From a virus, in IMG/VR virus record IMGVR_UViG_3300030085_003208, positions 1 to 38,132 of that record: a stretch of DNA of 38,132 nucleotides. One strand, 5' to 3'. The notes under the pieces were generated by a model. It did no database searches, was not told the origin of the DNA, and saw only the letters and a program-made list of their open reading frames with translations. Below are positions 6,716 to 31,016 of this stretch, piece by piece (the stretch's first letter is position 1; every line of letters starts with the position of its first letter). The position numbers were made by a program, and so were the translations under genes.

Positions 6716-6744
6716 ATTCTACTGATATTTCAGTATTATGTCAA
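6716..6744 (-). promoter_or_regulatory. sigma70-type promoter
   Basis: On the minus strand TTGACA (6744 to 6739), 17-nt spacer and TAGAAT (6721 to 6716). It ends 20 nt before the ATG at 6695, and the -35 overlaps the stop of the upstream oxygenase gene. It should be active with unmodified host polymerase. Confidence 0.8.
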
Positions 6745-11159: not shown

Positions 11160-14100
11160 CTAGTTATTTAGTCTATCTTCAAGAGCAGAAATTTTATCGG
11201 AGAGTTCCTTAACTGCTTCAATCAGAAGTGGGACAAGTTTTTCATACTTGACCGAAAGGAATTCTTCTTCCCTATCGGTGACGATAGGTTTAACTGCCTC
11301 TGGAAGAACTTTTTGTACTTCTTGTGCAGAAACACCAAGTTGTCTTCCAGGATTATCGCCCAAATCAAGAATTTTATTACCAACTTCATTCCATTCAAAA
11401 GTAAATCCAGTAAGTGAATTTACTTTATCAAGAGCACCAGTAATATTAATCTTGTTAGTCTTTAGTTTATCGTCAGAAGCAGCAGCAGCAAATGCAATAA
11501 TATCTCCTCTAACTCTAAGTTCTGATGCTGCTGCGTTACTACCTGGAGTTACATAATAGCGATCGTTCGATAATAAAGCATAATCGCCATTTACATGATT
11601 ATTAGTGAAGGTTAGATAATATGTACCACTAGTGGTAGTGTTAGTTATCTCGATTTTCTTAGCAGTGCCATCTAAGTCACCCTCCACATCTCCTTTTAAG
11701 GAACCTTCAAAATTAGTTGCATTTACTTTATTAATACCAGAAATATTTGTGGAGTTATCACCTACAATATTTCCATCAGCATTGATATCTAAAGAAACAG
11801 TTAATTTATCAAGTGTTGTATCACCATCAACATCAAGATTACCACCAACTGACAGATTTCCAGCAATACCCATACCGCCGTCTAATTGAACGGCACCAGT
11901 GTTTACATCACCAATTGTGTTATCTTGAGTACTTGTAAATGTAGTAATACCAGAAACTTTTAGTTGATCGTTAATATCAACTGTTCCTCCATTAGAATCA
12001 AGAACTAGCTTACCAGTTGCTGTGGTTACTGTGTTATTAGTTGAACCGATTATAATCTCATCAATATGTGCTTCACTCCATGGTAAAGCACTAGTACCAA
12101 GATATGCACCTTCATCAGCATCAGGAACAATACCTGTCTGGAATGTTGCAGCTTCTTGAACATTTAGTGTTCCATCAATATCAGTATTTCCACAAACATA
12201 TAAATCTGAACCAATACCAACACCACCCTTCACTCTCAGAGCAGCATTAGAATCATCACAGGATGTTGCATTATTAGAGCTTCTGAAGTCAACAGTGTCA
12301 GTGACTCTCAACTTATCATTAATAACCAGTTGAGCATTAAATCTAGTATCAGCATTAAAGGTTACAGGACCATCAAACTGCGATAAGATTTGCTGTGATG
12401 AACCACCTTCAACCAGAATTCTTTCCTTAACAATTACTTCATCAAAGACAACACTGAGTCTGTTTGGATCTTCACCAGTAATTGTTGGAACCGGAACATC
12501 AAATACAGTCTGTTCACCAGACTGTGAAGAATACTTGGTGTTTCCAATATAGAAGTCACCGTCACTGTCCATACCAGTGTAGAGAACAGTACCACAAGAT
12601 GTTTCTTGAGATTGTGATAAGAACTCTTCATCTTCAGTCAAGGTCTTGACTTGAACCTGTGGCAGACCCGTTGAGTAGTTACCAGGTCCATAACCAAGAT
12701 ATTCAAACGTATGACCAGAAGCACGAAGAATAGATGGTCTATGGAATTCAATAGGAAGCAATTTAATCTTCTTAACTACTGAATTTTCAGCATGTGATTC
12801 AATGAGCGTACCCATTGCACCACGAATGACTTGAATTTCATCAGTACCTGTTCCAGAAAGAGCATTGCTCCTAATTCTCATGATTTCATTATCTACTTGA
12901 ATATAACATCCAAGTGGGAATCTCACAGGAACATCTTCTAATAGATATGGTGCTGGAGATGGACGATAAATTTGGAATTGTTCTTCTGTTGTAATATCAC
13001 TTGTAATTTGAATCTGCTCATTATCATAGAATACAAGGTTTCTAGCACCAAAGTTTTCACCAGATGCATCTGCTGATGCATCGTTGGCAGACATGCCATG
13101 CTTTAGAATATAGAAGAAATCAGTTGTGGAAAGTTCCTTATCAGTTTTTGCCTCAAATACTTGGCGATTAATTTTGGCAGAAACTGTAAAATCACCAAGA
13201 TTATTATTTTGATTATCAAGGATTCTAAAGCTATTTCCTTTTAAGAGTCCATGCCTTACTTCAGCACCACCTGCGGCGGTAGTAAATCTAGTAATACCTG
13301 TTGCCGCAGTGTAACTCACCTGAGTTACTTTCATTGCAATACCAAGATTCAGTACAATCTGACCCTTAGCAGATATTGGGTCACCAGCAGTCTTAGCAAT
13401 AGAAACCGCTGTCGTGCTATTGATGGTAGAATTGACACGGAAATATCCACCAGCAGTAGTACCAATACCAGTAACTTGAACATAGTTATGCTCTGCTGTT
13501 GAAATACCAGCAACATTAGTAGTTACGTTTGCATTAGGTGCACCACCAATATGACTACTATCAAAATATAATGTTTCACCACTAGTATATCCAGAACCAC
13601 CCTCTACAATAGAGGCAGCGGTGACTGCACCACTACTAACAGTAACATCAGCAGTTGCACCATCCCAAACAGCAGAAGCAGGTGCAGAATTGTCATTGAA
13701 CAATCTTACATTTCTGTAAGTGCCATCAACGTGACCACTACCGCCAGAAAGATTATTATATTTTACAAGTTTATTTAAATTATGTTGTCTATCAAATGTT
13801 AAAGTCTCTGCGGGTGTTGTTCCACTTATACTGCTAATTTTAAATCCGACACCAAAGGTGTCTAAGAACATATCAGTATTCTCTCTAGTGAGACTTCTCT
13901 TCAGGTCATTAGTTACAACATCACCAAGAGGAAATCTCTTAGCAAAGGTTTTTGCTGCTGGTGGATTATCCTCAAAGTTATCTCTATCTAACTGTGGATA
14001 GAGGTTTGTTACATTCTGACTGTACTTATCATTAACAAATTCTTGTGGCAATGATGCATCAGCATTCAACGCATACAGATAATAAATGCCATCATCTACA

Positions 14101-17009
14101 TTTTTTACATAACTCTTGATTGTCTCTACACGATAGATGTAATAGTTTTTCTTAACATCTTTTCTTGTAAATCTGGGAAGTTGATTTGATGCAGTATCAG
14201 TATCATTTGTAATTGTTCCTGGATTATGAGAAGTTCCAAAAACATCAGTGCTATCAAATGAAAATACTTTATCGTTAGTTACTGTCTCAACACTAAATGT
14301 GCCATTATAACCAATATTCTTTGTACCAGGTGTATTAGTTGTACTGGTTACGTTCTCAACGAAAATCTTATCGTTGACTTTCAATCCATGTGGTTTCTCT
14401 GATCTGATTTCTATTGTAGATGTACCAGAGTCAAAAGTACAAGAACTAATGAATCTAACATTACGATTGAAATCATAGTCACTAGTATCAATGCTAATAG
14501 CATTAAAGTCGGAGTCTTGTCTTACATTTGTAGAACTAGAGTCTTGAAGAACAAATCCTGGAATAGGATCTCTTCCGTTAATAAGATTCTTTGGAACAAC
14601 ATAACGAATCTTGTAAAGTTTCTCATCCAGACTTCTCTCATCCTCTATTCTCTTAAAATAAGAAATTTCTGTATCAGGAACTTGTAGTGTTTTAATATAT
14701 GCTTCTAAAGCACTGTCCGCATCAGTATGAATACACCATTGTCCCACATTAGGATCAAATTGGAGTGGATGACCAAGTTCACCTGCTTTTTTATCAGATA
14801 CCCTACTTTCAACTCTAAGTTGTTCTCCACCATAATTTACAAGAGTAACTTCATCTAATGCTTCTGCATTAGTTCTTGAAGATGCAAGTTGAATTTGTGT
14901 TGAGTCAAGATTTGTATTTTTAGCGTTTGTGACCGCAAAATAGACCACATTTTCTTCAAGACCCTCTGGTAAGTCACCAGTTTCACTGAAAATTCTAACT
15001 GACTCACCATTCTGTAAGTTGTGAGAACCAACAGTATAAACTGTTCCCTCTGCATTATTTTGAAGAGTTACATTATCATAACGCTTAACTGAGGAGTCAG
15101 TTCCATCAACTTGAGGATTAGATGATGTAATAGGACCATTGGTCATCAAGACTCTAGCACTATTACCATCAGCATCTAGATAAATTCTTTCACCTTCTCT
15201 TGCACCAATTCTGTAACCTTGGGAAATTACTGGGGGTGGAATATCTTCGTTAGTATATCCTAAGAGATATAGATGTTCATTTGATGTACTCTTAATTTTA
15301 TCAACATCAAACTGAACCCATTCAACATTAATTTCCTCACCAGAGATTGCTTTAGGTGCAACAATTGAAGTTACATAACCCTTATCATCCTTATCAAATG
15401 CATCTGGCTTGAATCCGTCTGCTGCCAATGAGAATTGACCAAAGTTGGAGTTAGAGTTGGTAATGGATGCATCACCACCACTTGCTGCTTCGAAGTGTTT
15501 GTGGAATCCAATAGCAAAGACTGAAACAATCTGAACAACGGCATCGTTGGTCATCTTGATATGAGTTGTCTTCCAACCTTCTCTATAAACAGCATCAGAA
15601 TCTAAGTGATAAACAAATTTATCGTTAGTTGCTGATGATTCTGAAGAAAGTTTAGAACCGGTTACTTTGGTGATACCAATACTATCAAAAGTCCGATTTG
15701 ATGGATTATATTTAACGAATGCCCGATCATCTTTTTGGAGAGATACAGCAGTAAACTGTGCAACAACCATTGAACGGAAACCATCTGCCTTGCTTCCATC
15801 GGCGTGCATACCCTGCATACCAAAAACAGAACGTAAGGAGATATTAAAGATATATGGTGATGCACCAGTTACGGTATCAGTTTCAATAGTGGCAGTTGCA
15901 TTTGCACCTGGTGCAAGACCAGCACCAGGACCAGCAGGTAAGTTCGCTCTTACATTAGATAATGAATATGCGAATACTTTATCACTTATAATTTTCGTAA
16001 CTTTCGTGGAAATATTATAATCACTTACATTGATTCCACGAATTTTGACGGGTGTTCCAGCACTGAATCCATGCGGAATTGATGTAGTAACAGTAACCAC
16101 ATTACCAGGAGTTGCACCATCTCCAGAAATGATAGACGAAATAGTAATTGGGTCAGCAGCAAATGCGCCAACAATTTCCCATTCAGGTCTTTGTTTTGCA
16201 AACGAATTTGGTTGTGTTGGATATTTTTGATCAATATCTTTATTGCCAGCTGCTTTGTTATATGCATTACTCAACTTAGCGTAATACATATCAAGATCTG
16301 TCAGATCATAACCAGTTGGAAGATTGACACCATCAGCATACTCAAAGCAAGTGAGTTTATGGTGAGAGAATATTGGTTTTGAACGATTATTAGAAGAAAA
16401 ATCAACAGGATCGGTATATACAGTTCCGCTCTCATCTCCATCAAAGATAGAGAATTGCCAGAAATAGCAGGCACCAGTAATTCTAAAAATAGCACTGGAT
16501 TTTACAGTTTCATCCGTTGGGTTTGGAACATACTTTGGTCTAATCTTAGTCTTTCTTAAGTCAAGACCAACAATAGAGGTACCACGAGGTATAATAATAC
16601 CACCATTAATACTATTAAACTTGTGAAGAATATTATTTTCTTGTGTTAAATCAAAATTAGAATCTAGTGTTAGTGTTAATTCACTACCAGCAAAAGATTC
16701 TGCTCCACTGGGAGATACAGTTGTAGGGGTGCCACCAACACTTTTAATTGCATATCCAGGTCTATTATCAATTAGGTGTTCCCCAGGATATAAAAGAATT
16801 GTGGTTTTTTCAGTTATATCATTATTATCGCCCCTTAAATATGAAAATCTTGCGGATTCAATTAGTGCCCTTTGAATAGTTTTAAAGGGTTTTGTTAAGG
16901 AGTTACCCGCATTCTCGATACCATCAGTAGCATCAAGGTCATTCGGATTTACATAAAGAATACGACCTTCTGTATTCTTGATAAAATTCTCTAACTTATT
17001 GAGTGGCAT
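11160..17009 (-). CDS. giant tail fibre with S74 autochaperone
   Basis: 1949 aa, the largest gene here. The start MPLNKLENFIKNTEGRIL and the following ...DLDATDGIENAGNSLTKPFKTIQRAL suggest a beta-helix or pectate-lyase-like base. The middle has repeated beta modules built on HGF/HGL...G..V.I. The last 110 residues are a peptidase S74 intramolecular chaperone: SDDKLKTNKINITGALDKVN with the self-cleaving Ser near 1845, GVSAQEVQKVLPEAV, then VKYEKLVPLLIEAVKEL and a coiled coil. Such domains trimerise fibres and then cut themselves off. It is a host-binding fibre of the virion. A late-promoter-like motif lies at 17040-17049. Confidence 0.88.
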   Translation of the reverse strand: MPLNKLENFIKNTEGRILYVNPNDLDATDGIENAGNSLTKPFKTIQRALIESARFSYLRGDNNDITEKTTILLYPGEHLIDNRPGYAIKSVGGTPTTVSPSGAESFAGSELTLTLDSNFDLTQENNILHKFNSINGGIIIPRGTSIVGLDLRKTKIRPKYVPNPTDETVKSSAIFRITGACYFWQFSIFDGDESGTVYTDPVDFSSNNRSKPIFSHHKLTCFEYADGVNLPTGYDLTDLDMYYAKLSNAYNKAAGNKDIDQKYPTQPNSFAKQRPEWEIVGAFAADPITISSIISGDGATPGNVVTVTTSIPHGFSAGTPVKIRGINVSDYNISTKVTKIISDKVFAYSLSNVRANLPAGPGAGLAPGANATATIETDTVTGASPYIFNISLRSVFGMQGMHADGSKADGFRSMVVAQFTAVSLQKDDRAFVKYNPSNRTFDSIGITKVTGSKLSSESSATNDKFVYHLDSDAVYREGWKTTHIKMTNDAVVQIVSVFAIGFHKHFEAASGGDASITNSNSNFGQFSLAADGFKPDAFDKDDKGYVTSIVAPKAISGEEINVEWVQFDVDKIKSTSNEHLYLLGYTNEDIPPPVISQGYRIGAREGERIYLDADGNSARVLMTNGPITSSNPQVDGTDSSVKRYDNVTLQNNAEGTVYTVGSHNLQNGESVRIFSETGDLPEGLEENVVYFAVTNAKNTNLDSTQIQLASSRTNAEALDEVTLVNYGGEQLRVESRVSDKKAGELGHPLQFDPNVGQWCIHTDADSALEAYIKTLQVPDTEISYFKRIEDERSLDEKLYKIRYVVPKNLINGRDPIPGFVLQDSSSTNVRQDSDFNAISIDTSDYDFNRNVRFISSCTFDSGTSTIEIRSEKPHGLKVNDKIFVENVTSTTNTPGTKNIGYNGTFSVETVTNDKVFSFDSTDVFGTSHNPGTITNDTDTASNQLPRFTRKDVKKNYYIYRVETIKSYVKNVDDGIYYLYALNADASLPQEFVNDKYSQNVTNLYPQLDRDNFEDNPPAAKTFAKRFPLGDVVTNDLKRSLTRENTDMFLDTFGVGFKISSISGTTPAETLTFDRQHNLNKLVKYNNLSGGSGHVDGTYRNVRLFNDNSAPASAVWDGATADVTVSSGAVTAASIVEGGSGYTSGETLYFDSSHIGGAPNANVTTNVAGISTAEHNYVQVTGIGTTAGGYFRVNSTINSTTAVSIAKTAGDPISAKGQIVLNLGIAMKVTQVSYTAATGITRFTTAAGGAEVRHGLLKGNSFRILDNQNNNLGDFTVSAKINRQVFEAKTDKELSTTDFFYILKHGMSANDASADASGENFGARNLVFYDNEQIQITSDITTEEQFQIYRPSPAPYLLEDVPVRFPLGCYIQVDNEIMRIRSNALSGTGTDEIQVIRGAMGTLIESHAENSVVKKIKLLPIEFHRPSILRASGHTFEYLGYGPGNYSTGLPQVQVKTLTEDEEFLSQSQETSCGTVLYTGMDSDGDFYIGNTKYSSQSGEQTVFDVPVPTITGEDPNRLSVVFDEVIVKERILVEGGSSQQILSQFDGPVTFNADTRFNAQLVINDKLRVTDTVDFRSSNNATSCDDSNAALRVKGGVGIGSDLYVCGNTDIDGTLNVQEAATFQTGIVPDADEGAYLGTSALPWSEAHIDEIIIGSTNNTVTTATGKLVLDSNGGTVDINDQLKVSGITTFTSTQDNTIGDVNTGAVQLDGGMGIAGNLSVGGNLDVDGDTTLDKLTVSLDINADGNIVGDNSTNISGINKVNATNFEGSLKGDVEGDLDGTAKKIEITNTTTSGTYYLTFTNNHVNGDYALLSNDRYYVTPGSNAAASELRVRGDIIAFAAAASDDKLKTNKINITGALDKVNSLTGFTFEWNEVGNKILDLGDNPGRQLGVSAQEVQKVLPEAVKPIVTDREEEFLSVKYEKLVPLLIEAVKELSDKISALEDRLNN
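11162..11171 (-). promoter_or_regulatory. late-promoter-like motif
   Basis: CTAAATAACT on the minus strand, about 20 nt before the ATG at 11142 and inside the last codons of the 1949-aa fibre gene. The same 10-mer occurs at 31882-31891. Confidence 0.6.
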
Positions 17010-17370: not shown

Positions 17371-17380
17371 AGGTATTTAG
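17371..17380 (-). promoter_or_regulatory. late-promoter-like motif
   Basis: CTAAATACCT on the minus strand, directly next to the 3' end of tRNA-Leu and 15 nt before the ATG at 17356. It would separate late transcription of the fibre genes from the early tRNA unit. Confidence 0.6.
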
Positions 17381-17465
17381 TGCGAGTGGGGGGACTTGAA
17401 CCCCCACGGGATTAACTCCCAACAGATTTTAAGTCTGGTGCGTCTACCGATTCCGCCACACTCGC
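17381..17465 (-). tRNA. tRNA-Leu (UAA)
   Basis: 85 nt with acceptor GCGAGTG paired to CACTCGC, a long variable arm (TTGGGAGTTAATCCCGT), T-arm GGGGG-TTCAAGT-CCCCC and anticodon loop CTTAAAA. The long variable arm fits leucine. CCA is not encoded. Third of three tRNAs. Confidence 0.93.
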
Positions 17466-17470
17466 TTAGG

Positions 17471-17543
17471 TGCTTCCTGAGAGGATCGAACTCTCCTTAG
17501 GCAAATTATGAGTTTGCTGCATTCACCAGATTGCTAAGGAAGC
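17471..17543 (-). tRNA. tRNA-Met (CAU)
   Basis: 73 nt. Acceptor GCTTCCT/AGGAAGC, anticodon stem GCAAA/TTTGC with loop CTCATAA, T-arm GAGAG-TTCGATC-CTCTC, discriminator A. The CAU anticodon could also be a lysidine-type Ile tRNA; I favour elongator Met because a separate Ile-UAU tRNA for AUA lies next to it. Confidence 0.82.
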
Positions 17544-17546
17544 AAA

Positions 17547-17618
17547 TAGGACTGCTGGGACTTGAACCCAGATCACTCCGTTATAAGCAGAGGGCCTTTA
17601 CCTTTAGGCGACAGTCCC
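17547..17618 (-). tRNA. tRNA-Ile (UAU)
   Basis: 72 nt. Acceptor GGGACTG/CAGTCCT (first pair G-U), D-stem GCCT/AGGC, anticodon stem CTCTG/CGGAG with loop CTTATAA, T-arm CTGGG-TTCAAGT-CCCAG, discriminator A. The UAU anticodon reads AUA directly. It lies 6 nt after the antitoxin stop, so it is cotranscribed with it. Confidence 0.85.
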
Positions 17619-17624
17619 AGATGA

Positions 17625-19863: not shown

Positions 19864-20646
19864 TTATGAACCCTCCAATACTGTAATTCTTTCTTTCAAA
19901 CTCTTAATTTCTTTTTGATGCTCCTGAACTGCACCAATTAATAATGTGGTAAGTCTACCATAATCAACACCTTTATATATTTTATCATATAATGGTTCAT
20001 CTTTTACCACCGATGGTATATACTTACCAACTTCCTGTGCAATTAAACCAATTTGTCTACCTTCAGGATAATTTTTGGTAAGAGATGTTGGAATATCATC
20101 TTTCCATTCATATGAAACTGGATTAAGTTCCATCAATAAATTTAAAGATTCTAGATCATCCAATCTCTTAATATTTTTCTTCAATCTGATATCAGAGTGA
20201 ATGTGTAGTAAATCTAAAGGTTTTCCATTATAATTCCAAAAACCAGCTAAAGATCCAAAGGGAGAAACATTACCTGATGCTGGTGTAACTTCTTTTACTG
20301 CTGGAACAATTTTTGAGAATAATCCTGTAATTTTTTGAGAAATTGCATTATATGATGCTTCTAAAGCACCTAAAGATAAATTCGCACCAATCTTAATATG
20401 CGATCCAGTTACATTGTAAATTCCAACATGATTATTCAAACCAATTGAATTAAACGTAAGTGGAGAAGTTATTGATGGTCCAGCAACCAATGATGCTGTG
20501 AATGGAATTGCAGTTGCACCTGCACCAAAATGACCCTTGTGTGCAGAAAGTGATCCTGGTTCCCACAATCCATTGGGTAATTGTAATGCACCACCACCAA
20601 GTGGTGTCATAATATCAATACTACCTAGTTCTAGTTTATCAATCAT
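19864..20646 (-). CDS. virion protein with S74 autochaperone domain
   Basis: 260 aa. Residues 1-140 are beta-rich with a Gly/Leu N-terminus. The C-terminal 110 residues are a peptidase S74 domain: HSDIRLKKNIKRLDDLESLN with the self-cleaving Ser, NPVSYEWKDD, QIGLIAQEVGKYIPSVV, DYGRLTTLLIGAVQEHQ and a final coiled coil. It should form a trimer and process itself. It is much smaller than the giant S74 fibre and is placed next to the beta-helix protein, so it may trimerise a short tail spike. Confidence 0.85.
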   Translation of the reverse strand: MIDKLELGSIDIMTPLGGGALQLPNGLWEPGSLSAHKGHFGAGATAIPFTASLVAGPSITSPLTFNSIGLNNHVGIYNVTGSHIKIGANLSLGALEASYNAISQKITGLFSKIVPAVKEVTPASGNVSPFGSLAGFWNYNGKPLDLLHIHSDIRLKKNIKRLDDLESLNLLMELNPVSYEWKDDIPTSLTKNYPEGRQIGLIAQEVGKYIPSVVKDEPLYDKIYKGVDYGRLTTLLIGAVQEHQKEIKSLKERITVLEGS

Positions 20647-20657
20647 ATTATTTCTCC

Positions 20658-21230
20658 TTACTTACAAGATTGACTAAGTGCTGTAATCAAATCTGACCAC
20701 TGGCCAGATAAAATTTTAGAGAGAAATCCTGCACTCGCAACAGCACTTCCTTTGTTAAAATCTCCAGATAGCATCATATTACCCACAAAATTCATATTTC
20801 CTTCACTCACAATACACATTCTTGATGCAGATAATCTATATTCACTACCCGTGCTAACTTGATAAAATCCATTACATTTAGACATTATATTGCCTTGTCC
20901 AGATTCTCCAGATGCATTGAAGTAAATGTTCCTGGCATTAATATAGACGTCACCAGCTTCAGCATTCAATACAATATCACCAGATTTTGCAATGATTGCC
21001 TTACCAACTCCACCATGTTGTGATGGATCACCATTAATTGCAACTACTTCTGCACTAAATCCTTGAATTCTCTCATTCTTGTTTCCACTCTTTGAGTGAA
21101 TTATAGAATTATTTGCTGACGTAATAATAGTCAGATCTCTTTTATCATCAATTCCTTCATGCGTGACAGGTCCACAGTGCATAAAAGCATGTGGGTTAGC
21201 AGTAATTGTATAATCTGGTGCGTTTGACAT
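20658..21230 (-). CDS. beta-helical needle-like protein (gp5 C-terminal type)
   Basis: 190 aa. The centre (KSGDIVLNAEAGDVYINARN) shows the alternating IxLxAxxGxIxIxA pattern of triple-stranded beta-helices in T4 gp5 and VgrG spikes. The N-terminal ITANPHAFMHCG and C-terminal FLSKILSGQWSDLITALSQS flank it. I infer a trimeric membrane-piercing or needle component of the baseplate, separated here from the OB-fold protein at 24090. The ATG is preceded by its own late-promoter-like motif. Confidence 0.68.
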   Translation of the reverse strand: MSNAPDYTITANPHAFMHCGPVTHEGIDDKRDLTIITSANNSIIHSKSGNKNERIQGFSAEVVAINGDPSQHGGVGKAIIAKSGDIVLNAEAGDVYINARNIYFNASGESGQGNIMSKCNGFYQVSTGSEYRLSASRMCIVSEGNMNFVGNMMLSGDFNKGSAVASAGFLSKILSGQWSDLITALSQSCK

Positions 21231-21246
21231 CGAATATCAAATTTTT

Positions 21247-21258
21247 AAGTATTTATTG
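21247..21258 (-). promoter_or_regulatory. late-promoter-like motif
   Basis: CAATAAATACTT on the minus strand, 17 nt before the ATG at 21230 and just after the stop of the 941-aa gene. It would give the needle-like, S74 and LamG genes their own late transcript. Confidence 0.6.
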
Positions 21259-24084
21259 TCAATATCCATATCCGCCACCTGATGATCCACTGCCACCAGA
21301 TCCTGATGAACCACTAGATCCTGATGAACCACTAGATCCACTACTAGAACTACCAGAAGAAGTAGATGGGGGTGTGGATGTTGTTGTAGTGGTGGTGGTA
21401 GTAGTAGTATTACTAGATGTAGATGTTGGGGTAGTAGTGGTGGTCGTCGTAGTAGTGGTAGTAGATTGTTGTGGTTGAACAATTCTTTGATTTACTTGTC
21501 CCAAACTTTCTTCAAGGGTATCATAAATGGTTTCATGGAATTCACTAGTGTGGTTAACACCAACCATTCTTACAGTTGTTCCATCTGCTCGTGTATGAAT
21601 ATGGAAAGGACCTGAATATGGAGCACCATTAACATATCCAATATTAGGTCTAGTATTTCCAATACAATCAATTACTTGAACTAATTTATTTGGATCAACA
21701 ACCTGTCCAGTTTTTAAGAATTCATTGAGTGGTGTGAACTTTAGGTTTACTCTAAAGTTGGCACCCATTCCTTCTGCACTAGAAACACTTGCAGTTGGAA
21801 TTTTTGTATATCCATATCCAGTTTCCAAAACAGTAAAGCTAACTATTTGTCCTAGATTATTGACACCAATTTGGAATGATCCACCATCACCATCATCTAA
21901 AGTTACAGTATCTCCATCAGTATATCCAATTCCTGTATCAATAATATCCACAGTATCAATTGTGGCAACAGCATCATTATTTCCTGTTCCACTTGTTCCG
22001 CCAGTTCCATCAGTTCCAGATGTAGTGGTCGTATCACTACCTGTAGTGGTTCCACCATCATCTAAAACATTTCCTCCACCAGAACTAGTTCCACCACCAC
22101 CAGTGGTATCATCAGCAGTATTTCCATCACCATCACCATCACCACCAGTTCCATCACCATCATCAATATCATCATCACCATCTGCTTCTGGTGGATTTAC
22201 ACCAGGTATAGAATCTGGTGGAGTTCCTTGAGTTGCAATTAGAGTAATTGATTGTGTTGTTGTCTGAATAATAGAACCATTATTTTGTGATGCTATACCA
22301 TTATCGTTTTCAGCAGTTAGAGTGTATGTCAGAGCAACACCAGATCCGTCTGATGGAAAGTTCAGATTATTTGGTATTACTGTGGTTATTGCACCATTGA
22401 GTGGTAAAGAATTATTTTCTTCTGCACCAGATAGTGAGACAGTTTCTGCATTCTGTGTTTCCCAGCTCAGTAAAACGAGTTCTCCAGTGACAACATTCGT
22501 ATTTGATGCTGTAAAAGAACTAATTACTGGTGCTTCTGTGTTTACATTCTCGGAGGATTCTCCTTCCTGATTAACTGTAAGAATGAAAGTTTGTTCTACT
22601 ACTTGGGGGGAAGAACCTTGATTTATCTTAGTTGCTTTTAATGTAAATGTTTTTGTTGTTTGAGTTTCATTTGGTGCAAATATAACATCATCTTCCATAA
22701 CAGGAAGAGTTGCACTGCCAACTAAAGGTAAAGCAGTATATCCTTCAATTTGCAATGAGACTTCATCAGCATTAACAACATTCCAATTCAAAGTTACGGA
22801 ATTATTGACTGTTAATGGATTGGGTGCTCCATAAAATGATGTAATAGACGGAGCACCTCCATTATAGGTATTCTCATAACCAGTTCCAGGGTTTGCTATT
22901 GTAATGCCTGATAGTTCACCAGTTTCGTATCCATCATCATCTGTTGCCATATTAGCAAAACCACTGGCATCTGCTCCACATCCTGCTGGATCAACAATTT
23001 GAACAAACGGTGGTGACTTATAACCAGATCCACCATTCAGTAGGTTAGTTCCAATAACTTGTCCGACATTATTAACAACTGCTTGTGCAACAGCACCTGA
23101 CCCACCACCACCAAAAATTACAACCTGAGGTATTCCACACTCAAAGTTACCTGTATAACACTGTCCTGGTGATTGTGCTTGATTACCTTCTGGACCAAAG
23201 AAGTTATCCATCCACTCATTAGCACCAGCGGAAATTTCTCCAGGGAAATTTGGTGAAATACCAAAATTAAAGTTTGCAAAATTATCTTTTTCTGCTTTGG
23301 ATGGTCCACCCCATCCCTGTAGTGAAAACTCTTTTACCTCTGGGCATTCTGGACCACCACATAAGAAACCTTGGAATCCAAGAATAAAATCAATGGCAGA
23401 TGAAACAGAACCAAATATTTTACCAACTCCTCCGAGGATATCATTAATATTATCAAAAATTGGTCCTAAGATTCTATCAATATCATTTGTGAGACGATTA
23501 ATAAGTGCATTTGTAAATTTTTCTGCGGCACAGAATGGAGTTTGAATAACTTGTCCAATTAGTGAGTATAAGAAATCACCAACTAGTCCAAACAATCCAG
23601 CAATAATTTTCTCAAAAGAACAGAAGATTTGATCAACAACAGCAGCAACAATTGATTCCTTGATTGTTCTCAAGAAATTAGTCATGATCAATTCGAGTGC
23701 TGCAAGAATAAGAGATTTTAACTTATTCAAGACCCAGTTTCTTAATCTTTGAACTAGAGATTTAAGAACACCAGCAATTGCACCAGTGATGGCACTAATT
23801 GTATTTTTTAAATTTTGAACTTTATTAATTGCACCATTGATATAAAAATTGCCGTATTTTTGAACTCCACGCAAAAATACAAACAGTTTTTGTAGATTCC
23901 TGTTTATATCAGATAATCCACCTTTACTATCACAGGGATCACCTTTACTATAAATTTCTTCCTTTGCTATCTGCTCAAGATTCCACGCAACAGTCTGATA
24001 GTATTTGATACCATACTTCTCATCTTCTTTTTCTTTACCTCCCATCGAGGTTTCATCAATTAATGCTTTAGACTGAGTCGTCAT
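21259..24084 (-). CDS. large baseplate protein with Ig-like domains
   Basis: 941 aa. The first 130 residues are helical with hydrophobic stretches (TISAITGAIAGVLKSLVQRL); a second helical part runs to about 250. Next come repeats of the form NGGSGYKSPPFVQI, then two tandem Ig-like beta-sandwiches (about 410-500 and 510-610), an Asp/Gly linker, another GYGY module, and the motif PFHIHTRADGTTVRMVGVNH near 840. The last 70 residues are low-complexity Thr then Ser/Gly. It lies between the OB-fold gene and the needle-like gene, so it probably belongs to the hub or baseplate. Ig domains suggest carbohydrate contact. Confidence 0.72.
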   Translation of the reverse strand: MTTQSKALIDETSMGGKEKEDEKYGIKYYQTVAWNLEQIAKEEIYSKGDPCDSKGGLSDINRNLQKLFVFLRGVQKYGNFYINGAINKVQNLKNTISAITGAIAGVLKSLVQRLRNWVLNKLKSLILAALELIMTNFLRTIKESIVAAVVDQIFCSFEKIIAGLFGLVGDFLYSLIGQVIQTPFCAAEKFTNALINRLTNDIDRILGPIFDNINDILGGVGKIFGSVSSAIDFILGFQGFLCGGPECPEVKEFSLQGWGGPSKAEKDNFANFNFGISPNFPGEISAGANEWMDNFFGPEGNQAQSPGQCYTGNFECGIPQVVIFGGGGSGAVAQAVVNNVGQVIGTNLLNGGSGYKSPPFVQIVDPAGCGADASGFANMATDDDGYETGELSGITIANPGTGYENTYNGGAPSITSFYGAPNPLTVNNSVTLNWNVVNADEVSLQIEGYTALPLVGSATLPVMEDDVIFAPNETQTTKTFTLKATKINQGSSPQVVEQTFILTVNQEGESSENVNTEAPVISSFTASNTNVVTGELVLLSWETQNAETVSLSGAEENNSLPLNGAITTVIPNNLNFPSDGSGVALTYTLTAENDNGIASQNNGSIIQTTTQSITLIATQGTPPDSIPGVNPPEADGDDDIDDGDGTGGDGDGDGNTADDTTGGGGTSSGGGNVLDDGGTTTGSDTTTTSGTDGTGGTSGTGNNDAVATIDTVDIIDTGIGYTDGDTVTLDDGDGGSFQIGVNNLGQIVSFTVLETGYGYTKIPTASVSSAEGMGANFRVNLKFTPLNEFLKTGQVVDPNKLVQVIDCIGNTRPNIGYVNGAPYSGPFHIHTRADGTTVRMVGVNHTSEFHETIYDTLEESLGQVNQRIVQPQQSTTTTTTTTTTTPTSTSSNTTTTTTTTTTSTPPSTSSGSSSSGSSGSSGSSGSSGSGGSGSSGGGYGY
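21262..21470 (-). repeat. Thr- and Ser/Gly-coding low-complexity tract
   Basis: Triplet-like repeats of ACT/ACC then TCT/GGA encode two polyThr runs followed by GSSGSSGSSG. Such DNA is prone to slippage and may vary in length between related phages. Confidence 0.75.
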
Positions 24085-24089
24085 AGTTA

Positions 24090-24587
24090 TCAGGTATTAG
24101 GATTCGTCTTAAAGAAATCTTGCGTTGGCAACTGAGCAGGTTGTTGTGAACTTGATCCTTCTCCAGCTACGATTTGATAACTAGATGGTTGTATTGTTCC
24201 ATGGAATGGATCAATTCTTTTAAATCCTGTGCTTTGCTGTTGTATTGCGTCATTAACAGAAATATCAACATCGGCACCAGTTCTTGGCATAACACCAATT
24301 ATAGCTGGTTCAGTGCATTCATCATCTAAAAAGAATCCAAATACAAATTCACCCCCAACAATGCCAGTTGATACTTTATTTAGAGATCCATGCGAATTGG
24401 GACGCAGAATCTGTGCCCAAGGTAGTTGACTATCAGGTAACTTTGTTCCTTCTGAAGGATGATACCCCATAATTCTTACTTTAACGCGATCACCCCATCT
24501 ATTGGGATCAGTCTTATTCGTAGTTTGAAGTGGTGGAACTTGTCCTATCCAGAATTTAGGACTTTTTCCAAAGAAACCTTTATTCAT
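24090..24587 (-). CDS. 5: baseplate hub protein, gp5 OB-fold domain
   Basis: 165 aa. Residues 8-60 (PKFWIGQVPPLQTTNKTDPN and RVKVRIMGYHPSEG) match the N-terminal OB-fold of T4 gp5, and GGEFVFGFFLDDECTEPAI with GVMPRTG is the usual continuation. The lysozyme and beta-helix domains of T4 gp5 are absent: the gene ends soon after the OB-fold with a Gln/Pro-rich tail. It should sit on the gp27-like trimer at the tip of the tail tube. It follows the gp27-like gene with 3 nt between. The name gene 5 refers only to this domain. Confidence 0.85.
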   Translation of the reverse strand: MNKGFFGKSPKFWIGQVPPLQTTNKTDPNRWGDRVKVRIMGYHPSEGTKLPDSQLPWAQILRPNSHGSLNKVSTGIVGGEFVFGFFLDDECTEPAIIGVMPRTGADVDISVNDAIQQQSTGFKRIDPFHGTIQPSSYQIVAGEGSSSQQPAQLPTQDFFKTNPNT

Positions 24588-24590
24588 TTA

Positions 24591-25970
24591 TTAATCCTCC
24601 TCTACAGTATATACACCATCAGTATCACGAACAACTGTCAAATGTGTTAACGATCCAATTTGTTGATCAGCAGTAAATTCATGTGCTAAGTTAACAATTA
24701 AATATTTACCACTTATTTTTTCGTCTGAAACACCCTCTTGTGGTGTATCTGTCAATGCAGGGAATTCACATTTTATAACCATGCCTGCCCTCAACTCAAG
24801 ATTACACGGAACAGCCATTTGAATCATCCTTGAAAAGATGAGATTATATCTCATTCTTCCCGCAGCATACCAGAATAGGGGATCATTATTGACCGTAGAT
24901 CCAATACCAACAGCAAAATTACCCGAATTTAAAATTTGAAAATTAGTTGTAGAAAATTCACCTTTGCCTTCATAGATATCAGTTAACTCCTCAGAACCCA
25001 TTCTCTTTAATATTTTGTCAACCGATTTGATAACAACCTCAGATGTTTCCCAAGTTGCTGGATTCATGAAAACATTCTTAGAATTTATTCCAGAATCTTG
25101 CTGTGAAAACATATTACCAGAAGGTTTAACAAATTCATACTTCAATATTCTAAAATTACTTTGATCGCAAAAAGTTGCAACATCTCTATAAACATATGCG
25201 ATTGGATATGGTGTTGCAGATATTAAAGAGTCTATTCCTCTAAAATAAAATCCATCCTGTGTTTCAAAAATAAAAAATCCAGGAGCAGCATTAGTTGGCA
25301 CTTCAGGAACTGCTTTAGGGCATAAATCTAATAAAAATTCAAAAGGTGATCTACCATTACCATAATCTGCGGATGTATCTTTTGTTGGTGTAAAATGTAC
25401 GGCATTGTCGGGTGCTTTCTCGGCAGGAACTGTTAATCCACCATTTTCAAGCGTATCCGTTAGGACTGCTCTTGCCGTCTCAGAAATTTTTCCATCATAT
25501 TTTTTATCAACTCTAATTGTTGCATCTCTTGCACCTGGTTCGGAACATAAGTTAATTGTTAAAATCTGTTTCTTATCTTTTGTCATAACATCTGAAACTG
25601 ATGTTACTTCTAATGGATAAGTTGAATCAAATTTTAATTGAGCATATTGATCTGGTTCTAAATTTAAAAAACTAGAATTTGCATTGTAAATGTTTCCAGA
25701 TCCATTTTCAAGAGTTATATTTAATTTATTACCAACCAGTTCTTCGGCAAGAGAAAACAAATTTAATGATCTTTCTCCAACACCAGCAGTTACAGAATAT
25801 CCACTATCAATTACCACTAATTTTGCAGTAATATGTGGTGACAACAGAGATTCAAAATATTTAAATCCTAAAAATCCACCAGAAAGAGTTATGGATTGAC
25901 CATCAGTTATATTGTTAACACCTAATGTTAATTCAGTTATTGATGCAGGTCTTGCCCAGTTCCTTACCAT
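24591..25970 (-). CDS. 27: gp27-like baseplate hub protein
   Basis: 459 aa. Position between the tape-measure-like genes and the gp5 OB-fold gene matches T4 gene 27. The protein is beta-rich with FKYFESLLSPHITAKLVVID near residue 34 and two tube-like domains, then RSPFEFLLDLCPKAV and FIFETQDGFYFRGIDSLI in the middle and GKYLIVNLAHEF near the end, a pattern shared with hub proteins of the gp27/gpD type. Its role is to form the trimeric platform joining tube and spike. Identity is inferred from order and fold pattern. Confidence 0.78.
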   Translation of the reverse strand: MVRNWARPASITELTLGVNNITDGQSITLSGGFLGFKYFESLLSPHITAKLVVIDSGYSVTAGVGERSLNLFSLAEELVGNKLNITLENGSGNIYNANSSFLNLEPDQYAQLKFDSTYPLEVTSVSDVMTKDKKQILTINLCSEPGARDATIRVDKKYDGKISETARAVLTDTLENGGLTVPAEKAPDNAVHFTPTKDTSADYGNGRSPFEFLLDLCPKAVPEVPTNAAPGFFIFETQDGFYFRGIDSLISATPYPIAYVYRDVATFCDQSNFRILKYEFVKPSGNMFSQQDSGINSKNVFMNPATWETSEVVIKSVDKILKRMGSEELTDIYEGKGEFSTTNFQILNSGNFAVGIGSTVNNDPLFWYAAGRMRYNLIFSRMIQMAVPCNLELRAGMVIKCEFPALTDTPQEGVSDEKISGKYLIVNLAHEFTADQQIGSLTHLTVVRDTDGVYTVEED

Positions 25971-25979
25971 TTATCCCCC

Positions 25980-27860
25980 CTAAGACGTAATTATAGTATC
26001 TTGATTAACAAAGACAAGTAATGTAGAACCGGCAACATCATCAGGAGATTGCATTGCCAACAGATTTGTTCTATCTATATCAGGATTATTCACTTGAAGA
26101 CCTGGCACAGGTGGCGGTGCTGTAACCGTTGGAAATAAATCCTTAGGAACCGCAGCAGGTCCTCTCTTGATACTTTCATTTGTATCACCACCAGTTCCAT
26201 ATGCAGTGAAGAACTGATTATCTGCTGCAGTCCCTCTAGTTCTCATTTCTGCCCTATCTCTACGATCGATAGTAGAACCTGCACCAAGAAACTCTGTTCT
26301 CCCCCCAACATGTTCTGCTGCTTTTATTTGCATATCTCTATTTCCAAGTGCTGCCATAGTTTGATCAAATAATCTAGCAACACTTTCTCTAGAAGGAGAT
26401 TGTTTTCTTTTCTTATAATAAGACATCATAGCATCAATTGCACTATCTCTGTCTTTGACATTTTTCCATATATCAGCGGTTTTAGTTCCAGGACCACTAC
26501 TTGCATTTGGATCTATGTAAGCAGGTTGATATTGAGCATCTCTAGTAATTACTTCACTAATACTAGATCCATAACGTTTATTAGGATCAGCTGCTCTATT
26601 ATAGATTGATTGTGCAACGTCTGCTCTTGCCTGAGCATTACCACCTTCTAATGCAGATATTGCTGCTATTAGTGCTTGATCACTAGTGGCATTAGATGCA
26701 ATTGGAGCATTCTCTAGATTAGGTAAACTACCAGGTCTATAAGGACGATTTGAGTCATCATCTTCATTTTTATCCTGCAATCCAAATAATTTTCTAATAT
26801 TACCTACGAGATCTTCTAAAAGATTATTTGACTTGGTTTTTTCTTCCAGATTATTTGCTTGCGCTACTGTTGTTTTTTGGAAAGTGGAGAAAGAATCAAT
26901 ACTAGAACCAGTTCTTATCGGTTTAGTATCAAGAGTTAAATCCTTAGTATTGTATGATGATCCTTTGATAGTTCCACCAATAGAATATCCTTTTATAGTT
27001 TCTTCAACAAGTCTCGATTGAGCAAAAAACTCTTCTTTTGTTAAGGAGACCGCATCTGGAGATTCATACTTGATGGTTGATGATCCAAATGCACCTGCAA
27101 TTCTAGAAATATATCCAACACCAGGAAGAAAAACTTTCTTATTCTTTGGATAATTGGAATTACTAATAACTTTATTCACTTCCTTTGCTGCTCTATCAAA
27201 TCCAGCAACCTGAACTGGTTTTCCAGATACTGAATTTATTGGAGTAAATGATCTTGTAGTAGCACGAGATGAATTTGGATTAACTGGAAGAGTTCCTGGT
27301 GCTCCAGGAGCAGGAACCTTTAATCCTTGTTCAATGTCTCTCAAATCTTTAAAAGATTCATCAATTTCATTTACATCTGTTCCATCCAAAAACTTATTCA
27401 GTTCGTCCAAATCTCTTTTTATTTGTTCTTCCTTTCCTGGAGTTAATTTTTGAGTAAGTTCAATAAACATCATCGAGAGTTTACCAATCTCACCAACTAT
27501 AAATTTGATATTGTCAATAATACCTTTGTTATCTTCAAGAAACTTCTCTATACGTGCAATGATAGCAGGTAAACTATTAACTAAAATTCCGGCACCAATT
27601 AAAACAAAAAAGTCCTTTAATTTATCAATAAAACTTCTTGCAGGTTGAGTAACTCTCTGTGCAATTCCAGATCCAAGTCTTTGTTTTTTATTTCCTTCAA
27701 TAAGATCTTCTCTTTGCTTTAATTTTATCTTGTTCTGTTGAACTTGGAATAATCTTTTTTCTTCAGCACGAAGTTTCTTCATGCTCTTGTTCCCTTCGGC
27801 AAGAGTCTTATTGATCTTTATTGCATTTATTTTTAGAGTTTTTATTCCAGTTTCAATCAT
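25980..27860 (-). CDS. tape-measure-like protein with SleB-type hydrolase domain
   Basis: 626 aa. Residues 1-70 form a charged coiled coil; residues 85-105 are hydrophobic (FFVLIGAGILVNSLPAIIAR). Around residues 395-520 AAISALEGGNAQARADVAQS, IYNRAAD, YGSSISEVITRD and YQPAYID match the SleB/cell-wall hydrolase domain, with the Glu of ALEGG as likely catalytic acid. It would cut peptidoglycan during DNA entry. It follows by 4-nt overlap a longer protein of similar layout, suggesting the two act together inside the tail tube or at the hub. This may stand in for the missing lysozyme of gp5. Confidence 0.75.
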   Translation of the reverse strand: MIETGIKTLKINAIKINKTLAEGNKSMKKLRAEEKRLFQVQQNKIKLKQREDLIEGNKKQRLGSGIAQRVTQPARSFIDKLKDFFVLIGAGILVNSLPAIIARIEKFLEDNKGIIDNIKFIVGEIGKLSMMFIELTQKLTPGKEEQIKRDLDELNKFLDGTDVNEIDESFKDLRDIEQGLKVPAPGAPGTLPVNPNSSRATTRSFTPINSVSGKPVQVAGFDRAAKEVNKVISNSNYPKNKKVFLPGVGYISRIAGAFGSSTIKYESPDAVSLTKEEFFAQSRLVEETIKGYSIGGTIKGSSYNTKDLTLDTKPIRTGSSIDSFSTFQKTTVAQANNLEEKTKSNNLLEDLVGNIRKLFGLQDKNEDDDSNRPYRPGSLPNLENAPIASNATSDQALIAAISALEGGNAQARADVAQSIYNRAADPNKRYGSSISEVITRDAQYQPAYIDPNASSGPGTKTADIWKNVKDRDSAIDAMMSYYKKRKQSPSRESVARLFDQTMAALGNRDMQIKAAEHVGGRTEFLGAGSTIDRRDRAEMRTRGTAADNQFFTAYGTGGDTNESIKRGPAAVPKDLFPTVTAPPPVPGLQVNNPDIDRTNLLAMQSPDDVAGSTLLVFVNQDTIITS

Positions 27861-30118
27861 AAGTCAACTCCATATGCAGAAAATGATCTACCAAAGAATG
27901 GATTATCCATATCCATCGGTGCAATTAAAATCTCAGGAGATGCAGATTCTGTTGGTTGTTCTTGTGGTTGTGCCTGCTGCTGTTGTCCAGGTCCTTGTAT
28001 TACCGTTGGTGGTAAATTGACACTCATTGTTTCAATAGAACCTTCACCAGATGATTCTGATTTTGTTCTTCTATGAGTATAGGTTTGAATTTTTTCTGGT
28101 TTAAAAGGAACGACTTCTAATCTAATCGGTTGCGATTCAACTGGTTCCACCTTAGGTTGACTATTCTCCCTTGCATAATTCATAAGTTGCACTAAATTTT
28201 GTGTCTGTGCAACTAATTCTTCTCCTGTATTACTAGTGCGAATTATTTCAGGTGGATTGTTTATTCTGTTTAAAAGATCAATAAATCCTCCAGATTTTTC
28301 AAGTTCTTTCAGTTCTAATTTTCTAACTTGCTTTTCCACAAGATCACCAAATTTTTCAAACAAAGAAACAGATCTGGTTGTTTCTTCTTGCTGCAATCCA
28401 AAGTTTCTTGCCTGTTGTTCTACACCGCTTTTGAATGATAAGAACATCCTTCCTGCATTATCATTAATATCTTTCAATACAGGACGGAACATATTTGCAG
28501 ATGATGTTTTGATAACTTCTTCACCAGGTGCAAGTATTGCTGGAACACTATCAACATTTGTTGGTCCCTTGCCAGGTATCGTTCCACCTCTAGATAATGT
28601 GGGAAGTATTTTACCACCAACTTGCTCAACTGGTGTTTGTAGTGGATTACCAAAACCCCCAAAGTCAGGTCTAATTTTTGGTAAATTATCTCCCATCTTA
28701 TTCAAGAGTTGTCTTGCAGCAGCTCTATCAACTAGTGGTGCATTTGGATTATTATAAATTTGTCTAAGATCAATTTTACTAGGACTTAATTTCTTTAACT
28801 GTGCAGCTCTTGTTCCAATTTGTTCTGCCCAAGCTTTACCCTGTTTAAATCTAATTGCAGATTCTGCTCTTTGAGCGGCAGTTCTAGAGGTCGTGCTGGC
28901 AGTTGATCTTCCCGTTCCTCTTACAAGATTTTGCAACAATCTAGGTCCCTGGGATAATCCCAGAGCACCACCCAGTGCCAAAAGTGATTTTGCAAGAACT
29001 ACTGCCACTGGTCCAATAGTGACCAAATCTCCCAGTGGAGATACTGTTTTACCACCTTTTACAAAATTATCGTATCCTTTGTCTATTAAAAATTGTCTTT
29101 CAGCATCGTTATAATTACCAGGCGCTCTTGAGAGTAAATCATCAAGATTGAACACAGGCACTCTTTCAGGTTCTCTTCCAGGTATTGGTTGTTCTACTGG
29201 TTCTAATCCAGGTGCTGGGGCAGGAGCAGGAGCAGGTACTGGGGCAGGGGTAGGTGCAGTAGGAGGAGTCGTTGTTGGATTATCGGGAATACCAAGTTTT
29301 GGTTTTAATCCATTAATAAATGCCGCACTTGCTAATAATGTAAGAATTATTTGTGGTAGTTTACTGACAACACAAGCAACTACACCTCTACAAAAATCTT
29401 CACTGCCTGGTTTGAATTTTCCATTTTTTCCAAATAGATCTTTCAGTCTTCTAGTTAAACTACGTGCAAGAGAGAATAACCCCTTTAACTTTAATAGAAG
29501 ACCTAATATTTTACCACCAATTACAATAGCAAGTAGTGTTTTCCAGTGATCTCGTAGGAAATTAAATACTCTAACTAATTTTTCTCTATTTTCTTTCTTT
29601 GATAACCATTCAAAAGCAGCATTAAGTGCAATACCAGTTCCGAGTATTGTTAAAAAATCAATAATCTTATCAAAAATACCTTTAACTGGTGATAATACCT
29701 TTACACCAAAATCTTTTATATTTTTAACTAATCCTTTTCCTCTTTCTACAAAATCTTCTTTTGCTACAAGTTTCTTCTTCCTTACTTGTTTTCTAGAAAG
29801 TTGTAATATACTTTTTTTCTCGGCAATTCTATTAGCAAAATCAATTGCTAACTGATTTTGAATCTCTACAAGAATTCTATTAGTTTCTGAAAGTGTTGCC
29901 GCTAACGATCCTGTAGATACTGTTTCTTGTCCTTTTAAATCTTCTGCTTTTATTGCCTGTGCTTTCTTTGCTCTCACAAAAGACATCTTGGATGCCTTCA
30001 GTTTTGGTTTAGCAAACGAAAAACCAATAGTCTTCGCACCTTTCATCAATGGGGACGAATCCTTCCCCATTTTTGGTAATGATGGTGCTTGGAATAATGG
30101 TTGGTTTTCTAATGCCAC
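27857..30118 (-). CDS. tape-measure-like virion protein
   Basis: 753 aa starting at GTG 30118, which overlaps the upstream stop. The N-terminal 120 residues are basic and helical. There are about four hydrophobic segments (near 150, 190, 255 and 370), a Pro/Ala linker (APVPAPAPAPAPG) near 295, and LSRGGTIPGKGPTNVDSVPA with ILAPGEEVI, a motif common in phage tape measures. The C-terminus is Pro/Gln-rich. It probably fills the tail tube, sets its length and enters the host membrane. T4 gp29 is the functional counterpart by position, but I cannot show homology. Confidence 0.72.
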   Translation of the reverse strand: MALENQPLFQAPSLPKMGKDSSPLMKGAKTIGFSFAKPKLKASKMSFVRAKKAQAIKAEDLKGQETVSTGSLAATLSETNRILVEIQNQLAIDFANRIAEKKSILQLSRKQVRKKKLVAKEDFVERGKGLVKNIKDFGVKVLSPVKGIFDKIIDFLTILGTGIALNAAFEWLSKKENREKLVRVFNFLRDHWKTLLAIVIGGKILGLLLKLKGLFSLARSLTRRLKDLFGKNGKFKPGSEDFCRGVVACVVSKLPQIILTLLASAAFINGLKPKLGIPDNPTTTPPTAPTPAPVPAPAPAPAPGLEPVEQPIPGREPERVPVFNLDDLLSRAPGNYNDAERQFLIDKGYDNFVKGGKTVSPLGDLVTIGPVAVVLAKSLLALGGALGLSQGPRLLQNLVRGTGRSTASTTSRTAAQRAESAIRFKQGKAWAEQIGTRAAQLKKLSPSKIDLRQIYNNPNAPLVDRAAARQLLNKMGDNLPKIRPDFGGFGNPLQTPVEQVGGKILPTLSRGGTIPGKGPTNVDSVPAILAPGEEVIKTSSANMFRPVLKDINDNAGRMFLSFKSGVEQQARNFGLQQEETTRSVSLFEKFGDLVEKQVRKLELKELEKSGGFIDLLNRINNPPEIIRTSNTGEELVAQTQNLVQLMNYARENSQPKVEPVESQPIRLEVVPFKPEKIQTYTHRRTKSESSGEGSIETMSVNLPPTVIQGPGQQQQAQPQEQPTESASPEILIAPMDMDNPFFGRSFSAYGVDL

Positions 30119-30293: not shown

Positions 30294-31016
30294 CTAGCTG
30301 AAAAAAGATGCTAATCCCTCAAGCACAATCTCATTATCTTTTTTGGTATTAGGATTCTTTACAACAATAGTATGTGTAAGTTTAGGCATTGTTTCAAAGA
30401 ACTTCTCAATTTCTTTGAATTGCTTGGTATTCATTTGTTCAACAAATTCTATCATCTCCTTCTTAGTTGAATCTTTTGCAGACCAACATTCATCTTCATT
30501 ATAGATCATCTCAATACATGAAGAAATCATCTCAAGAGATTGATCAACACCTTCACTATCACCTTGAACTTCAAAATTATTTTCAACAAATTGATCGATA
30601 GTTGGATACTTCAACTTCATTGAAAGTGAATCATCCAATTTTATGATATTGGTATGATCTTTATTCTTTTGAACTTTGATTGTATCAATATCAATCTCAG
30701 TTTGAACCTGAGTCTCACCATCATCCTGACAGGTTACGGTAACCTCAATTTGCTCACCAACAGACTTGGCACGAATATTAAGAAACAAATATTCAATATC
30801 AAACGTTGCAAGTTCTTGCACCTTAACACCACGAGTGCTAATGCAATCAGACAAGATTTGAACAATGGCATCAGTAATCTGTCCCATGTCTTCAGATTCC
30901 AGTGCCATTACTAGAATTTTTTCTTCTCTTACCAGAAAGGGACGATACTTTACTTTCTTTCCAGTAGAAGGAATCTCCAACTCATACGTTGGAGTGCTAA
31001 TTTTTGGTAAAGGCAT
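30294..31016 (-). CDS. 26: baseplate hub assembly protein gp26
   Basis: 240 aa. The start PLPKISTPTYELEIPSTGKK and KYRPFLVREEKILVMALES is the characteristic N-terminus of the T4 gp26/baseplate hub family. The middle has GVKVQELATFDIEYLFLNIR and beta strands; the C-terminal half is helical. gp26 is needed to assemble the central hub and may act as a chaperone. It is the first gene of the leftward baseplate operon, with GATAAATAAA 25 nt upstream and GGAG before the ATG. Confidence 0.88.
   Translation of the reverse strand: MPLPKISTPTYELEIPSTGKKVKYRPFLVREEKILVMALESEDMGQITDAIVQILSDCISTRGVKVQELATFDIEYLFLNIRAKSVGEQIEVTVTCQDDGETQVQTEIDIDTIKVQKNKDHTNIIKLDDSLSMKLKYPTIDQFVENNFEVQGDSEGVDQSLEMISSCIEMIYNEDECWSAKDSTKKEMIEFVEQMNTKQFKEIEKFFETMPKLTHTIVVKNPNTKKDNEIVLEGLASFFS

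Follow-up and report, generated by a model that had tools for sequence, protein, structure and literature searches.

A T4-like environmental virus with gp5 in two genes and a predicted SleB-like wall-hydrolase domain on an upstream tail protein

How a contractile-tailed virus builds its cell-puncturing hub is the question raised by a 38,132-nucleotide (nt) stretch of DNA from a marine virus, hereafter the window, which forms positions 1 to 38,132 of the IMG/VR record IMGVR_UViG_3300030085_003208 (39,583 bases, 39.6 kb). A sequence-only reading had proposed that the OB-fold and beta-helix, joined with lysozyme in T4 gp5, are here spread with a SleB-type hydrolase domain over three genes, and all of the open reading frames (ORFs) that it named are real and lie on the minus strand (Table 1). 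The reading favored here, with a probability of about 0.72, is that gp5 underwent fission into two genes, that a replaceable wall-hydrolase domain is carried by a pair of upstream tail proteins, A and B, and that the spike is encoded by a third gene. The sequence data described below show the split, with its conservation and single main origin, as well as the homologies and where the domains lie. Family searches identify the virus as T4-like through a gp26-type hub protein, a tail tube cap, a wedge, a single-strand binding protein and a helicase loader. The relatives retrieved via the hub genes are mostly Kyanoviridae cyanophages, and the genes form a conserved hub operon of the Kyanoviridae type in the order gp26, A, B, "tail protein", gp5 and spike.

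The OB-fold is well placed on the 165-amino-acid (aa) protein, which matches Pfam Gp5_OB at 28.5 bits (cut-off 25) and whose family profile matches residues 9-155 of T4 gp5 (expectation value (E) 1.5e-6). The 941-aa protein had been regarded as a separate protein lying between OB-fold and spike and is instead the C-terminal part of gp5 (gp5C), as indicated by phrog_1922 and by alignment to fused cyanophage gp5, whose C-terminal part it matches. Over the 932 positions of phrog_1922, the 165-aa protein corresponds to 18-151 and the 941-aa protein to 192-931 (E 3.6e-50). Both parts are found in one ORF in P-SSM2, S-T4, Sf-CH8, S-SCSM2R and S-SSM7, and a single long gp5 ORF is present in 14 of the 16 isolate loci fetched, recognized at both ends in 11 of these, by OB-fold and ORF length in ACG-2014g and S-CRM01, and by annotation in P-SSM4. 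HTVC008M, one of the two isolates without a long single gp5, has a short OB protein of 350 aa, and the stretch fetched from Melnitz showed no gp5. As both ORFs match phrog_1922 and gp5 is one ORF in these 14 loci, homology identifies the OB ORF and the 941-aa ORF as two halves of one gp5. The Kyanoviridae gp5 of P-SSM2, S-T4 and Sf-CH8 thus has the same parts, the same gene order and a spike gene directly downstream, and differs in being one ORF rather than two.

In the window, the OB frame closes with TGA and then TAA, and an ATG in another frame follows 5 nt past the first stop. Since a one-base slip near this junction would join the frames, the split might be an assembly or sequencing artefact in which one base was lost from a single gp5 gene. 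However, four related contigs (L009-L012) keep the stop (TGA or TAA), the TAA and the new ATG; in the 941-aa protein, three of these share 85-87% identity with the window, and L012 is almost identical to it. As stop codons and start are kept in diverged relatives, the split is not explained by sequencing error and, on the sequences compared, is real and conserved. In addition, the gap between OB and gp5C in 33 split loci ranges from 1 to 272 nt (median 24), and a Shine-Dalgarno-like GGAGG precedes gp5C in several other split loci. In the window subclade, the short spacing and the lack of any clear Shine-Dalgarno site ahead of gp5C would also fit programmed -1 frameshifting or readthrough, by which fused gp5 would still be made. 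This is quite improbable given the two tandem stops in the OB frame, the wide gaps and GGAGG sites of other clade members, and the absence by eye of a conserved slippery heptamer from the junctions of the window and related contigs.

The distribution of the split points to a single main origin. A gp26 scan gave at least 80 loci. Among the matches listed, the first 103 sequences comprised 33 with a split gp5 and 2 more that were probably split, 21 with a fused gp5 and 2 that were probably fused, 5 that were cut, 1 that lacked OB and 39 in which the region was not shown, and a larger set of 184 sequences gave 97 classifiable ones (56 fused, 41 split); scans with gp26 and with the SleB-like domain favor window-like sequences, and these proportions are not natural frequencies. 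In a 57-row tree of gp26 and the tail protein, a split clade of 32 rows has support of 100/100, and the split/fused label takes 2 changes versus a mean of 18.0 when shuffled. Both complete marker proteins are present in 85 of the 97, which reduce to 72 distinct viruses (41 fused, 31 split), the window being represented by L012, whose marker proteins are identical. In the tree of these 72, 30 of the 31 split viruses fall in one clade (Shimodaira-Hasegawa-like approximate likelihood ratio test 100). The only split virus outside, L090 (17625-19896), has its ORFs 1 nt apart and could be a second fission or a case of sequencing error. With clade support of 100 in both trees, the artefact is largely refuted for the clade and is scarcely credible as an account of the split. 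The clade includes the single-cell virus AG-345-L05, and none of the examined isolates falls in it. The trees indicate a single gp5 fission, in the ancestor of a clade that is represented in this sample only by environmental or single-cell DNA. No photosystem gene was found in the window record. The 152-kb contig behind L046 opens with a 288-aa frame (L104, positions 1-867) that is truncated by the contig end; it matches Photo_RC in two pieces and, by its look, is presumably a shortened psbD. This partial psbD-like frame suggests a cyanobacterial host for one member of the split clade, L046.

The gp5C half is composed of a helical region, Gly-rich conserved repeats, two Ig-like repeats, low-complexity stretches rich in D/G and T/S, and an HxH...H motif near the C-terminus. 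The description of the 941-aa protein as Ig-bearing stands for two tandem repeats, at residues ~411-517 and ~518-625, which match each other with E 4e-6 (0 of 500 shuffles scored as high), but the name "Ig" is by pattern only, as no Pfam Ig family matches the protein even at E 5. A PYxGPFHxH...MVGxxH motif at residues ~823-855 occurs in 13 of the 95 ORFs that bear gp5C, and all other plus-strand ORFs of the scanned loci lack it. HxH metal sites occur in spike tips, and by analogy the motif is possibly a metal site.

The reading of the 190-aa protein as a beta-helix has support from profile and fold matches, with a monomer model of only moderate confidence. Its profile matches the VgrG spikes 6sjl (E 3.5e-5) and 8gra (E 1.7e-6). 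The AlphaFold2 monomer model (predicted local distance difference test (pLDDT) 76, predicted template modeling score (pTM) 0.53, moderate) matches 7b5h, the spike of an Anabaena contractile injection system (Foldseek E 0.05, probability 1.00; VIA Z 5.5), and also VgrG and phi92 spikes. As several unrelated beta proteins reach a similar Z, the fold match is supporting rather than conclusive, and on model and profile the spike is probably a trimeric beta-helix. It resembles the spikes of VgrG and contractile injection systems in these matches, and differs from them in being a small stand-alone gene without OB or gp27-like parts. The S-SCSM2R homologue is annotated as "membrane puncturing device". 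Of the 79 loci in which the gp5C or fused gp5 ORF is complete, 60 have a spike homologue directly after gp5C, so that a spike gene of its own is common rather than peculiar to the split viruses. Beside the spike, a 260-aa protein (19864-20646, minus strand) carries a Peptidase_S74 intramolecular chaperone domain, and the end of a 1949-aa fiber (11160-17009, minus strand) matches the same kind of tail-fiber C-termini as this protein.

Protein B carries a domain that resembles SleB. Residues 410-489 match PF07486 at 22.1 bits in the whole protein and at 25.3 as a segment, compared with a cut-off of 27, and 31 of the 33 members of its domain family match PF07486 (E up to 0.01). The segment model is of good quality (pLDDT 86, pTM 0.81), and in a second structure comparison (VIA) Z of at least 2 was reached by only 3 of 71 aligned chains, all from two SleB catalytic-domain entries, 4fet and 4f55, with Z of 5.9 and 5.7 (under 8, moderate). 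Plain Foldseek on the model gave no match with E under 3, and a profile of 33 domains gave none against PDB sequences at E up to 1; a 5-sequence profile ranked only two SleB chains, weakly (E 0.15 and 0.38). Glu 21 of the segment adjoins, and does not fall exactly on, the SleB Glu in the profile alignment, which we take to be the catalytic residue. The SleB-type hydrolase proposed inside B thus holds at the level of family and fold, but the window protein alone stays under the Pfam cut-off; its wall-hydrolase activity is predicted. Compared with Hydrolase_2/SleB lytic transglycosylases, the likeness lies in the fold match, the PF07486 family matches and the nearly invariant Glu, and the difference in that this is a divergent branch fused to a tail protein.

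A and B are paralogues, as they have an N-terminal domain of ~97 columns in common (E 5.9e-13). A has weak PHROG tape-measure matches (E 2.8e-4 and 8.9e-4), a tape-measure-like motif occurs in 4 of 57 A proteins, and comparison of T4 gp29 with A and B profiles gave no convincing match. The weak PHROG matches and the motif suggest a putative tape-measure role for the pair. A plain tail-length ruler was considered for A and fails on the available numbers, since S-N03 (138 nm, 933 aa) gives 1.5 Å per residue and S-CREM2 (418 nm, 1565 aa) gives 2.7. The A and B proteins of S-CREM2, ORF208 and ORF209, are reported by mass spectrometry of purified virions with 73 and 71 peptides (PMC10665884), and the presence of A and B in the particle is supported in this one relative, whose B bears Phage_lysozyme. 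A wall hydrolase motif on a tape measure protein is reported for mycobacteriophage TM4 (PMC1796659). The two cases are alike in placing a wall hydrolase on a protein of the tail-lumen type, and differ in that here a paralogous A/B pair of a contractile T4-like virus is involved, with only a putative tape-measure role.

The hydrolase families found on A and B change among relatives. By Pfam counts on 57 A and 56 B proteins, which are per family such that one protein may match two, M23 occurs on 16 B and 1 A, Phage_lysozyme on 3 B and 1 A, Phage_lysozyme2 on 3 B and 2 A, SLT and SLT_3 on 2 B each, GH19 on 2 A and VanY on 1 A. Of 64 records searched, 17 have M23 and 6 have PF07486 at E up to 0.1. 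One of the 57 A proteins matches the ADP-ribosyltransferase family PF01129 (E 1.3e-5). A search for T4-type lysozyme, in which 15 isolate genomes were covered whole, gave a match in 5 of 22 records, on B of Sf-CH8, S-CREM2 and S-N03, on A of S-CRM01, and on a short ORF of its own in S-PM2 and again in S-CRM01; among the 15 genomes, none lies in gp5. The SleB-like domain itself was found at 80 loci (61 distinct domain segments), on B in 34, on A in 18, elsewhere or unplaced in the hub operon in 7, at the gp5C start in 5 and in other settings in 16. Taken from domain positions, the wall enzyme appears to be a roaming domain outside gp5, borne by upstream tail proteins.

These observations bear on the idea that a T4-like OB-lysozyme-helix gp5 was broken into three, with the SleB gene as the former lysozyme part. 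All three functions are indeed on separate genes. However, no hydrolase was found in nine fused cyanophage gp5, with the T4 gp5 control recovering OB, lysozyme and Gp5_C repeats in the same test, and neither the 165-aa nor the 941-aa protein matched a hydrolase family of Pfam. In addition, the SleB-like domain belongs to a protein that is paralogous to A and encoded upstream of the tail protein, relatives with a fused gp5 also have their spike on a gene of its own, and no relative among the surveyed loci has OB, SleB and helix in one ORF. The three-way break is therefore very improbable. The OB/941-aa fission marks one clade, the spike is commonly separate, and the enzyme comes from an upstream paralogous pair. 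As for a complete gp5 with lysozyme elsewhere, the 39.6-kb record holds none, nor any Phage_lysozyme match, which is all that this record can show. The T4 gp5 of the Straboviridae remains comparable in its homologous N-terminal OB domain and central puncturing position, and is unlike in its internal lysozyme and Gp5_C repeats, neither of which is seen in the nine cyanophage gp5 and the latter of which are also missing from the window proteins. The different cell-puncture architecture that had been proposed is retained in the sense that OB, shaft, beta-helix and hydrolase are on separate genes, unlike in T4, but not as T4 gp5 in three pieces.

In a few split viruses a hydrolase-type domain is found on gp5 itself. 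The SleB-like domain lies at the gp5C start, right behind the OB gene, in L133, L135, L137, L139 and L140 (L139 and L140 are identical in the domain), all of which have the split arrangement as far as contig ends allow. In L015, one of 16 gp5C scanned, the start is a DPBB domain (PF03330, E 1.2e-10), which we take to be "RlpA-like", and of ten additional proteins (OB or gp5C) from split viruses, a hydrolase was seen in the gp5C of L135 alone. Unrelated hydrolases have thus been placed at the split point, which is the same relative place as that of the lysozyme in T4 gp5. A modular hub with separate collar, shaft and tip can be tentatively proposed, at rather less than even odds, in which the split point would be a docking or insertion site that has repeatedly received hydrolase domains of unrelated families (SleB-like, RlpA-like) as alternatives to that on A/B. 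If so, wall chemistry could be changed with the hub ring unaltered.

For assembly, order of events, catalytic activity and delivery, we infer the following from position and homology. The tail tube would end in a collar made of the OB protein and the 459-aa protein, with gp5C as the shaft below it, and the 190-aa beta-helix would cap this shaft, coaxial with the collar. Upon tail contraction the spike would pierce the outer membrane, and the cutting of the wall would then fall not to the spike but to the hydrolase domain that one of the tail proteins A and B carries, which in the window is the SleB-like domain of B. This domain is replaceable, its place on A or B being taken in related viruses by M23, T4-type lysozyme, SLT, GH19 or VanY, and the gp5C start bears a SleB-like or RlpA-like one in a few of the split viruses.

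Several points weigh against this reading. The 459-aa protein is a candidate gp27 homologue by position only, with no convincing match to T4 gp27 (hhalign probability 3.6%, E 0.012). Profile comparison of T4 gp5 with gp5C and with the spike gave no convincing match, such that gp5C has no detectable T4 gp5 homology and its putative shaft role is assigned by position. The SleB match of the window falls under the Pfam cut-off on its own, with only 1 of 64 records over it. Most A and B proteins of relatives lack a recognized hydrolase, so that an enzyme there may not be universal. The gp5C-start hydrolases in L015, L133, L135, L137, L139 and L140 indicate that not every second half is enzyme-free. 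Finally, B might be a lysis endolysin or capsid passenger rather than a tail part. Several such relatives are annotated as endolysins, and the authors of the S-CREM2 study regard A and B of that phage as endolysins that may be packaged in the capsid (PMC10665884). This alternative is unlikely in view of the fixed place of B in the hub operon, its N-terminus in common with A, the fusion of the same domain to gp5C, the detection in S-CREM2 virions and the tape-measure-like motif in A.

Table 1. Hub features of the window, all on the minus strand
Feature	Position in window	Strand	Basis
gp26-type baseplate hub protein, operon anchor	30294..31016	-	T4_baseplate PF12322, E 8.9e-73
Protein A, 753 aa, paralogue of B at N-terminus, tape-measure-like motif	27857..30118	-	Weak PHROG matches, motif
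Protein B, 626 aa, N-terminal helical/hydrophobic domain common with A plus predicted SleB-like wall-hydrolase domain	25980..27860	-	
SleB-like domain inside B, 165-aa segment modeled, nearly invariant Glu 21 of segment	26214..26708	-	
459-aa tail protein, phrog_350 family, position of gp27-like hub ring	24591..25970	-	phrog_350, E 1.1e-54
gp5 N-terminal half, OB-fold hub protein, 165 aa	24090..24587	-	Gp5_OB, phrog_1922, T4 gp5 profile match
Split point: in-frame TGA, then TAA; second-half ATG in another frame	24085..24092	-	
gp5 C-terminal half (gp5C), 941 aa	21259..24084	-	phrog_1922, alignment with fused cyanophage gp5
190-aa spike, probably trimeric beta-helix	20658..21230	-	VgrG profile matches, contractile-system spike fold match

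Other features of the record lie outside the hub genes. No Phage_base_V (PF04717) was found in the 39,583 bases. Three adjacent tRNA genes (Leu-TAA, Met-CAT, Ile-TAT) lie amid tail genes at 17380-17619, a Mom-like DNA modification protein is encoded at 34434-35021 (phrog_1384, E 2.8e-33), and four 2OG-Fe(II) oxygenase-type proteins are encoded at 929-1486, 6078-6695, 6741-7427 and 7400-7981, three of them adjacent; all of these are on the minus strand.

As a matter of routine, many database records of marine T4-like phages call gp5 "tail lysozyme". Petrov et al. 2010 list gp5 as "baseplate lysozyme hub component" (PMC2993671), and a pelagimyophage study assumes gp5 to be wall-degrading, reads its diversity as adaptation to the host wall, and states that the tape measure could not be identified (PMC7029224). 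We found no description of a split gp5 in the open-licence literature searched, and its absence from print is not claimed. The hub described here is mostly a variation on a known one, and the wider finding, that the wall enzyme is a domain that roams outside gp5, is of greater use. The label "tail lysozyme" is corrected by it, as the cyanophage gp5 tested have no known hydrolase and the wall enzymes lie on domain-swapping upstream tail proteins, whose genes are thus the ones in which to test how cyanophages get through the wall. The split clade in turn offers a natural experiment on whether the hub can work as separate chains, and may serve as a marker for an uncultured lineage.

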